From NCBI GenBank assembly GCA_002702685.1, contig PABD01000109.1, forward strand, positions 1 through 51,205: a stretch of 51,205 nucleotides of DNA. Direction: 5' to 3'. Positions 30,212 through 32,771 of the stretch are shown piece after piece. Positions within the stretch are counted from its first letter, which is position 1, and every line of letters begins with the position of its first letter. The notes under the pieces were generated by a model. The model ran no database searches and was not told where the DNA came from. It was given only the letters and a program-made list of their open reading frames with translations. Made by a program: the position numbers and the translations under genes. The DNA is from Planctomyces sp. (GTDB lineage: Bacteria; Planctomycetota; Planctomycetia; Planctomycetales; Planctomycetaceae).

Positions 30212-31213
30212 ATGTGTCATTGGCTAGATCAACAGTCTGTTATCGTGCGGGCTCCTGCCAAATTGAATTTCCATCTGGAAGTTCTGGGGAGGAGATCGGA
30301 CGGATTCCATGATCTGGAAACGGTCATGGTGAAACTTGCTTTGCACGATACACTTCTGATGCGCACACTCGATGTACGCTCCGCAGAGGGCAAAACGCGA
30401 ATAGATTTTCGCTGCCGGTATGCTTCCCCATTCTTTCAGTCAAATCCCGCACGTCCAGCCCCCATTCCCGACGACGAATCAAATCTGGTTGTTCGCGCGG
30501 CGCGACTGCTCGCGGAAACATTCACCTGTTCACGGGGGACCTCCCCACCTGGAACCGAAATCACGCTGATCAAACGCATTCCGGTTGAAGCCGGAATGGG
30601 TGGCGGGTCGAGTGACGCCGCCGCAGCGCTCGTCGGGCTCAACGCCTTGTGGGGACTCTCACTTCCGACAGAAAAGCTCGAGGCCCTCGCCGCAGAGCTG
30701 GGCAGCGACGTTCCCTTCTTTATCAATACGCATACCGCGGCGATCTGTCGTGGTCGTGGCGAACAGATTACTCCGATTCCTGTTCGTGGCAATTTTTCCA
30801 TCATTCTCGCTCAACCGGGAAGTGGCCTCTCTACACCGGCGGTCTTCAGAAGGTGGAGCGAAGATCACAACACAGGTACGTCTCGTTCGGTCGAGCCTAT
30901 TCAGCAGGCGTTGGCCGAAGGAAAGACGTCTGAAGTTTCACATCTCCTGTTCAATGCGTTGCAGGCTCCTGCGGAACGGTTGAACTCACAAGTCTCACAA
31001 ATCACATCCCTGTTTCGGAAGTTGCCCCTACCCGGCACTCTCATGACCGGCAGCGGTTCCTGCTGCTTTGGTATCTGCCATTCCTTTCGTCAGGCGGCTT
31101 CCCTTTCCCCTCGACTTGCCGCGGCACGGATTGCCCGTGTCTGTGTCACCTCACTTCATCACAAAAGGATGCACCATGGATATCACCGAAGTTCGTATCA
31201 AGTTAATGGATGA
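30212..31213 (+). CDS. ispE: 4-diphosphocytidyl-2-C-methyl-D-erythritol kinase
   Basis: A 333-residue GHMP kinase of the methylerythritol phosphate pathway that makes isopentenyl diphosphate; it phosphorylates CDP-methylerythritol. Motifs: [27 protein letters not shown] at the N-terminus, the ATP-binding glycine loop [18 protein letters not shown], and the third GHMP motif [17 protein letters not shown]. It is somewhat longer than usual (about 290) because of a C-terminal tail of about 40 residues. The last 38 bases overlap the start of spoVG in another frame. IPP made here would feed the neighbouring polyprenyl synthase in the same window. Confidence 0.92.
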
Positions 31214-31844
31214 CCCACACGACCGGTTGCAGGCATTCTGTTCCATCACTCTCGATGGGATGTTCGTAATCCGTGACCTGAAAATTATTCAGGGGGCCAA
31301 GGGATCATTCGTGGCGATGCCCAGTCGCAAATTGACCGATCGGTGTCCGCGCTGTTATTCCAAAAACCACCTTCGCGCGCAGTTCTGTAACCAGTGCGGC
31401 GTGAAACTGGATGAAGATCGCGCTACCAAAGATACGGACGGCAGGGCCAAGCTCTACGCTGATATCGCGCACCCGATCAATTCCGCCTGCCGGGAGCATA
31501 TCCAGACGGTAGTCATCGAGAACTATGAAAGCGAAAAGATCCGTGCCCAGGAGCCCGGTTACATCTGTACCTACGATGACTTTGATGAAGAACAGTTCGC
31601 CACGCTGGCGGACGAGATGCTGGAAACGGCGACGGTGAATGCGAATCCACATCAGAATCAGAATGGGGCAGGTCATTCGTCGACGGTGGTGAAGTCGGAA
31701 GACCGTTACCATCGCATCGATCGCGCCCAGTCGCATGCCTCACAGGCCAACCACATCCAAACATCCGGCAATCATACGCCTCGGGTCACCGCCAACCGAC
31801 AGGATGCTTCCGGAGACGAGGGATTCGGCATGGGCGTCCTCTGA
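31176..31844 (+). CDS. spoVG: SpoVG-family protein with an inserted zinc ribbon
   Basis: A 222-residue protein. Residues 1-50 match SpoVG ([37 protein letters not shown]) and residues 94-103 continue it with [10 protein letters not shown]. Between these halves, 40 extra residues hold CPRC (57-60) and CNQC (71-74), a zinc ribbon not found in ordinary SpoVG (about 85-100 aa). A further tail of about 120 residues is Asp/Glu-rich, then Gln/Asn/His/Ser-rich, probably disordered. SpoVG is a small RNA- or DNA-binding regulator in Firmicutes; the role in planctomycetes is unknown. ATG 31176 is preceded by AAAGGAT at good spacing. It overlaps ispE, an order also found in Bacillus (ispE-purR-yabJ-spoVG). 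Confidence 0.9.
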
Positions 31845-31890
31845 GGAAACCACCGCTCCGAGCGATTTTCAGATAACCCATGATACAACG

Positions 31891-31927
31891 AAACCGAACC
31901 GCACTTTCAGCGCAGTTCGGTTTTTTT
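31891..31927 (+). terminator. Rho-independent terminator after spoVG
   Basis: Stem AACCGAACCGC / GCAGTTCGGTT with a short loop, followed by a seven-T run. It ends the ispE-spoVG transcript. Confidence 0.92.
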
Positions 31928-31964
31928 CGTGCGCCTTTTCACATACGCCAATAAATGCTGGCCG

Positions 31965-32771
31965 CTACTTGAAGTAACCGATGGCATTGTGGAAGAGCTT
32001 CATGCCCTCCCCTTCGCCTTCGAGTCGAAGACGCGTCCATTGCGGATGTTGCGTGGCGAAGAGAAATCGTTCGGGGTGCGGCATCAATCCCAGCACGCGA
32101 CCGGTCGGGTCACTCAGCCCGGCGATGTTCGCCGTGGAGCCATTCGGGTTGTCCGGATAGGCCAGTACATCGTGCGAGGTCGGTTGATCTTTCTCGCCGG
32201 TGTATTGCAGCGCAATCTGCTGCTGATCGGCCCACTTCTTCAGGATGGCTTCGTCGCGGACGACGAGACGTCCTTCGGCATGGGCGATCGGAAGTTCGAT
32301 GGTGTCGATCCCCCGCAGGAAGACATTGTCCATGCTGGCGACCCGCAACCGGGTCCAGAGGGCGGTATAGCGTCCGTTCAAGTTCCACGTCAGCGTCGCG
32401 TCCGGTTCTGAACCTTCGACGGGCGGCCAGGTAGAAGCGCCCCCCGGAAGTATCCCCGCCTTCAGCAGAGTCTGAAAGCCGTTGCAGATACCGAGGATCA
32501 ATTTATCCTTCGTGAGGAACTCATTGATGGCGTCACCAAGCTGATTTCGCAACTGGCGGGAGAGGATGACCCCCGCGCCGATGTCATCACCGTAGCTGAA
32601 TCCGCCCGGAATGCAGAGGGCCTGATAGTTCTCCAGCAGCCTGGGTTTGGACAGCAACTCGTTAATGTGATGCCGATCCGCCGTTCCCCCGGCTAGTTCG
32701 AAGGCATGAGCTGTTTCGAGGTCGCAATTGGTGCCGGGTGCTCGCAATACACAAACGCGGGGTGCAGCCAT
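31965..32771 (-). CDS. purQ: Phosphoribosylformylglycinamidine synthase subunit PurQ
   Basis: A 268-residue class I glutamine amidotransferase that supplies ammonia to PurL in purine synthesis. It starts MAAPRVCVLRAPGTNCD, has IPGGFSYGDDIGAG, the nucleophile elbow LGICNGFQTLL (C96), and PHPERF with the His and Glu of the triad near the C-terminus. The form is long (typical PurQ is about 225), with extra residues around 110-190 as in archaeal and planctomycete proteins. No PurL or PurS is adjacent. It is convergent with spoVG, sharing the terminator side. Confidence 0.93.
   Translation of the reverse strand: MAAPRVCVLRAPGTNCDLETAHAFELAGGTADRHHINELLSKPRLLENYQALCIPGGFSYGDDIGAGVILSRQLRNQLGDAINEFLTKDKLILGICNGFQTLLKAGILPGGASTWPPVEGSEPDATLTWNLNGRYTALWTRLRVASMDNVFLRGIDTIELPIAHAEGRLVVRDEAILKKWADQQQIALQYTGEKDQPTSHDVLAYPDNPNGSTANIAGLSDPTGRVLGLMPHPERFLFATQHPQWTRLRLEGEGEGMKLFHNAIGYFK

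Follow-up and report, generated by a model that had tools for sequence, protein, structure and literature searches.

A predicted zinc ribbon between the two halves of planctomycete SpoVG and a conserved tip on its disordered tail

The window analyzed here, a 51,205-nucleotide stretch of Planctomyces sp. (contig PABD01000109.1), harbors a gene whose product, as judged from its sequence, is SpoVG in its planctomycete version, an orthologue of the SpoVG of other bacteria. SpoVG is a small regulator, dimeric or oligomeric, that binds nucleic acids. The reading we favor, with a probability of about 0.6, is that of a SpoVG orthologue with a ribbon inserted at the edge of its nucleic-acid face and a tail whose tip is presented to a partner.

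The insert itself is already known. In its accessible part, the work of Gupta et al. 2012 (PMC3444138, Fig. A3) reports that SpoVG of every sequenced planctomycete, and of no organism outside the Planctomycetes, has a signature insert of 32-36 aa within a conserved region; the insert of the window protein, 36 aa at residues 56-91, lies within that published range and, sharing protein, phylum and conserved region, is evidently the same. There the indel serves as a taxonomic marker, and the accessible text speaks neither of zinc, cysteine or a ribbon, nor of a tail tip. A search for SpoVG together with 'zinc ribbon' in full-text literature, a collection outside which most subscription papers fall, gave one paper, by its title on S. 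aureus tcaA, and in the literature so covered the zinc-ribbon identity appears undescribed. What seems new is this identity, the position that the ribbon takes with respect to the mapped DNA-binding parts, and the conserved tip at the C-terminus.

Results and Discussion

The window protein is a SpoVG orthologue

The Pfam SpoVG profile (PF04026) matches the open reading frame with 91.5 bits (E=3.7e-26, gathering cut-off 29.6), and its positions 1-81 of 82 are taken up by residues 1-118, so the domain is covered whole with about 36 residues inserted. The NCBIfam equivalog NF009749 (septation regulator SpoVG) stays below its cut-off, with 86.9 versus 108 bits; the insert breaks the match. Three PDB sequence matches fall below E=0.001, all of them SpoVG of S. 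epidermidis or B. subtilis (2i9z/2i9x/2ia9), and both PDB alignments printed are interrupted exactly where the insert sits. The protein has the fold of canonical SpoVG (PF04026; 2ia9, 2i9x, 2i9z) as well as its FVAMPS[RK][KR] and DIAHPINS motifs, and the family hallmarks are present in the alignment and the AlphaFold2 model: AMPS is followed by a basic doublet, R51-K52, and residues 103-123 form the C-terminal recognition helix. The canonical form lacks both the 36-aa insert with its predicted zinc ribbon and the long tail predicted to be disordered, whereas the window protein has both. Coordinates are collected in Table 1.

Table 1. Features of the spoVG region in the window (positions of the whole stretch).
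Feature	Positions	Strand	Evidence
ispE, directly upstream of spoVG	30212..31213	+	TIGR00154 198.9 bits, cut-off 138.7
spoVG CDS, ribbon-bearing planctomycete SpoVG, 222 aa	31176..31844	+	ATG ORF, Pfam, NCBIfam, orthologues
SpoVG first half, residues 1-55, beta strands, ending with R51-K52	31176..31340	+	PF04026, PDB 2i9z/2i9x/2ia9, AlphaFold2
R51-K52 codons, counterpart of the S. aureus SpoVG K50-R51 doublet	31326..31331	+	alignments; mutants of Jutras et al. 2013
36-aa insert, residues 56-91, predicted zinc ribbon and linker	31341..31448	+	alignment with insert-less SpoVGs; matches the accessible part of Gupta et al. 2012
Predicted zinc ribbon, residues 56-78, putative ligands C57, C60, C71, C74	31341..31409	+	conservation, pLDDT, DZR
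SpoVG second half, residues 94-124, including the recognition helix	31455..31547	+	AlphaFold2 helix 103-123
Low-complexity tail, residues 141-222, predicted disordered	31596..31841	+	AlphaFold2 pLDDT mostly <50
Conserved C-terminal tip DEGFGMGVL, residues 214-222	31815..31841	+	motif statistics over 76 tails

The genomic neighborhood adds to the case for orthology, since ispE lies directly upstream of spoVG here as in canonical systems. It precedes spoVG in 76 distinct loci of 85, with its stop between -200 and +60 nt from the spoVG start in 71 loci; in B. subtilis, too, ispE is near spoVG (ispE-purR-yabJ-spoVG). In the window, ispE overlaps the spoVG start by 38 nt (31176-31213), an overlap that L001 and L046, the relatives nearest to it, share; other relatives mostly show a short gap. 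PurQ, assigned by NCBIfam, adjoins spoVG in the window; downstream genes are conserved among close relatives only, purQ being present in 9 loci, the window and its duplicate among them. A promoter-like site sought in 30900-32000 was not found.

The insert is a conserved, predicted zinc ribbon

Alignment with SpoVG of Listeria, Agathobacter, Acetoanaerobium, Paenibacillus and Fusobacterium places the 36 extra residues after MPSRKLTD, between the two conserved SpoVG halves. An earlier note on this DNA had described the domain as split at that point by CxxC...CxxC (C57, C60, C71, C74), and translation, PF04026 and alignment agree with it. Residues 55-75 match Pfam DZR with E=1.6e-5 and 25.4 bits, short of the curated cut-off of 27.3. 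The CxxC-x10-CxxCG spacing is that of Pfam DZR PF12773, Zn_Ribbon_1 PF13240 and eL40-type ribbons, and the insert shows weak sequence and short structural matches to such domains; unlike them, it is a single knuckle pair within another fold, and it stays under the curated cut-offs.

The comparison with other planctomycetes that the earlier note had proposed finds the same cysteines throughout: the columns of C57, C60, C71 and C74 are kept in 83/83 aligned planctomycete SpoVGs, as is G75, while K63 and N64 are each kept in 82. The strict CxxC-x10(13)-CxxC pattern is intact in 82/83, the exception being L060, whose first knuckle is CxC. The distance from MPS to DIAHPI ranges from 41 to 53 residues across planctomycete SpoVGs and is mostly 45. 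By mean column entropy the ribbon (1.40 bits) lies between the core (1.05, residues 3-52) and the recognition helix (2.06), which indicates strong constraint on the ribbon.

Distribution in Planctomycetota, other bacteria and phages

Of 246 Planctomycetota genomes, 145 have a SpoVG. Among the matches listed that cover the profile, nearly all are about 335-378 nt long against some 80 profile positions, hence these SpoVGs carry the insert. A ribbon peculiar to this one genome is thereby ruled out: the same insert occurs across Planctomycetota genomes, is phylum-wide, and has been in print since 2012.

Concerning other bacteria, tblastn of plasmid and phage collections gave insert-less SpoVGs from Bacillota, one Fusobacterium and phages, with full-domain matches of about 240-285 nt and a few partial ones. 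The earlier note had considered that the ribbon might be common in SpoVG of many phyla; it is absent from the sampled Bacillota and Fusobacteriota and from most phage SpoVGs, and it is on these limited samples, together with the accessible part of Gupta et al. 2012, which agrees, that the presumed phylum specificity of the insert rests.

A scan of IMG/VR gave 43 SpoVG loci, nine with the ribbon (L095-L103, SpoVG from position 1501) and the rest without; none of these nine has ispE within its 1.5 kb flank. In L099 a head-morphogenesis gene (phrog_758, E=3e-16) neighbors the ribbon-bearing SpoVG, and in L103 the latter lies on a 298-kb record containing a terminase (PF03237), so at least those two are phage-borne. 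The ribbon form seems to be carried by phages, perhaps by those of planctomycetes.

Several further observations were made within the phylum. No SpoVG match at all is found in 43 of 133 near-complete Planctomycetota genomes, and spoVG seems dispensable in some lineages. Six genomes (G110, G141, G023, G058, G012 and G062) have two ribbon-bearing copies each, and in L065 (G084 C1:70080-70331) the SpoVG frame is apparently broken by frameshifts, reflecting either sequencing error or a pseudogene. Divergent SpoVG-like proteins that lack the insert, about 240 nt in size, are encoded in G011 C108 (L064:3913-4221, L167), G061, G045, G058, G096, G173, G103 and G179, coexisting with the ribbon form in most of those genomes. 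A serine recombinase gene lies close to the one in L167, which suggests that it is on a mobile element.

Predicted structure and possible role of the ribbon

AlphaFold2 was run on the full-length protein, with 15 sequences in the alignment, and on the core (residues 1-140), with 46 sequences including insert-less phage SpoVGs. The full-length model has a mean pLDDT of 66.7, with the tail mainly below 50, while the core model reaches a mean pLDDT of 91 and a pTM of 0.74, and in it the ribbon scores 92-94 and shows short strands at 54-56 and 63-65. The core is hence confidently predicted as a SpoVG fold with a confident ribbon. With this predicted model, Foldseek gives ten matches to the PDB with E<0.001, and each of them is a SpoVG chain, with a TM-score by target of 0.72-0.87. 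The next ones, at E>1, include NZF fingers and ribosomal zinc ribbons of the eL40 type that superpose over 25-27 residues with an rmsd of about 1-2 A, matches that alone are not significant and are consistent with a zinc knuckle.

Mutants and domain swaps of the S. aureus and Borrelia proteins showed that in S. aureus SpoVG the K50-R51 doublet is essential for DNA binding and that six helix residues, S66-E71, set sequence specificity (Jutras et al. 2013); Listeria SpoVG binds RNA (Burke and Portnoy 2016). The window counterparts of the mapped parts are R51-K52 and approximately S103-H108, and the ribbon lies between them in sequence, a position between basic doublet and recognition helix that makes a role in nucleic-acid binding plausible. 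Residues 53-95 hold 9 K+R versus 6 D+E; with so modest a basic excess, the ribbon does not readily suggest a contact with phosphates.

We propose that a CxxC...CxxC zinc ribbon was inserted into SpoVG, most simply before the sampled Planctomycetota diverged. Zinc on C57/C60/C71/C74 would make it a rigid knuckle, which would leave the SpoVG sheet right after R51-K52 and return just before the recognition helix, and would be found at the edge of the DNA/RNA-binding face. That the predicted ribbon, so placed, extends the nucleic-acid contact or fixes the helix is, in our estimate, an even bet.

The main rival to a nucleic-acid role is a contact with proteins, the ribbon being a protein-protein or oligomerisation module (for a partner subunit, RNA polymerase, or a ribosomal or degradation factor) that does not touch nucleic acid. 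Its weak structural neighbors include NZF/RanBP2-type fingers, some of which bind proteins, its charge is not markedly basic, and the S. aureus SpoVG complex is tetramer-sized (Jutras et al. 2013), so that intersubunit contacts are available. However, an insert between two mapped DNA-binding elements could hardly avoid affecting binding, and the eL40-type ribbons, matched as well, are ribosomal proteins; we consider this explanation rather less likely than not. More improbable still is a ribbon that was fixed early in the phylum and persists as a relic with a structural or redox/zinc-sensing function, i.e. a loop staple, or an off-switch upon thiol oxidation or zinc loss, with no contact of its own. 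Its fixation in the phylum at near-constant length would suit such a role, and four-cysteine sites can respond to oxidants, but the non-ligand residues K63 and N64 are nearly as invariant as the ligands, which exceeds the need of a pure staple. Finally, an annotation or assembly artefact (a frame error or fused genes) is negligible, as chance or artefact is ruled out by conservation: the genome that the window comes from is a draft, fragmented into 267 contigs and 66% complete, in which nothing specific pointing to an error was found, and the same architecture recurs in phage contigs and in 83 proteins of many planctomycete genomes, of which several consist of a single contig.

The disordered tail ends in a conserved tip

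The other feature of the protein is its tail, which the earlier note had put at about 120 disordered residues. Long and predicted disordered it is, but its length is nearer 80-100 residues (about 98 when counted from the end of the recognition helix at about residue 124), and the conserved tip had been missed. Tails of at least 12 residues were analyzed with the pattern F-[GSAKDN]-x-G-[ILVM] followed by 0-6 residues (usually one), mostly placed after acidic residues. The motif stands at the C-terminus in 41 of 76 planctomycete SpoVG tails, with the consensus D-D-x-F-G/S-x-G-I/L-F/L, and occurs internally once in 5111 tail residues. Shuffled tails gave 0.07 matches on average and 2 at most in 2000 trials, which rules out a chance motif. 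About half of planctomycete SpoVGs are without the tip.

Tail length across planctomycete SpoVGs varies from zero to about 400 residues, and the tip ends tails of very different length. It is spread over many separate deep lineages, in a tree of 128 columns that is too short for placing the root or counting tip gains and losses. It should be noted that some tails have a character of their own: those of L070 and L071, about 300-400 aa long, are RG/RD-rich with the look of an RGG box, and that of L016 has a glutamate run reaching the contig end.

The closest parallel is the C-terminal tip of SSB (SSB-Ct), where a nucleic-acid-binding core, a variable disordered linker and an acidic-then-hydrophobic end peptide are arranged alike, a likeness of architecture only. 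By this analogy the SpoVG tip looks like a docking peptide. The motifs differ: SSB-Ct ends in PF, whereas the SpoVG tip is DDxF[GS]xG[IL][FL], without PF. Four SSBs of related planctomycetes end in DEDIPF, DDDVPF or DDEVPF, so that planctomycete SSBs, where readable, end in D-x-[IV]PF and an identity of the two tips is ruled out. Likewise, the SSB-Ct pattern (D/E-rich, then I/L/V-P-F) is not found at the end of the window SpoVG, which is GVL, nor in most tip-bearing relatives, which end in G[IL][FL]. A ribbon-less phage SpoVG-like protein (L137:1495-1794 / L152:1501-1797) does end in an SSB-Ct-like tip, DENFGNDLPF; a scan of its close relatives found no further such end, and it stands as a single example.

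A DNA pattern search of the window's own genome, 66% complete, gave four places for the tip, only SpoVG being convincing; private to SpoVG there, the tip suggests no partner by its sequence. We propose that the flexible tail would present a partner protein with the tip, [D/E]-x-F-[G/S]-x-G-[I/L]-[F/L], and we see equal odds for and against its letting nucleic-acid-bound SpoVG recruit that partner in the tip-bearing lineages. Joining both modules, SpoVG of planctomycetes may tentatively be viewed, with less than even confidence, as a two-module hub, where a ribbon-extended nucleic-acid-binding core is tethered through a disordered segment to a dedicated docking peptide that would recruit a partner, in parallel to the SSB tip, with a motif and a receptor of its own.

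Significance

Whether SpoVG, which is widely conserved, acts as a regulator by binding DNA or by binding RNA is still debated. A phylum-wide ribbon located between the mapped DNA-binding elements represents a natural experiment on how SpoVG reads nucleic acids, and the conserved tail tip is a concrete bait for a SpoVG partner. To our knowledge, planctomycetes divide without FtsZ, and a septation regulator in these organisms must therefore act outside its textbook role.
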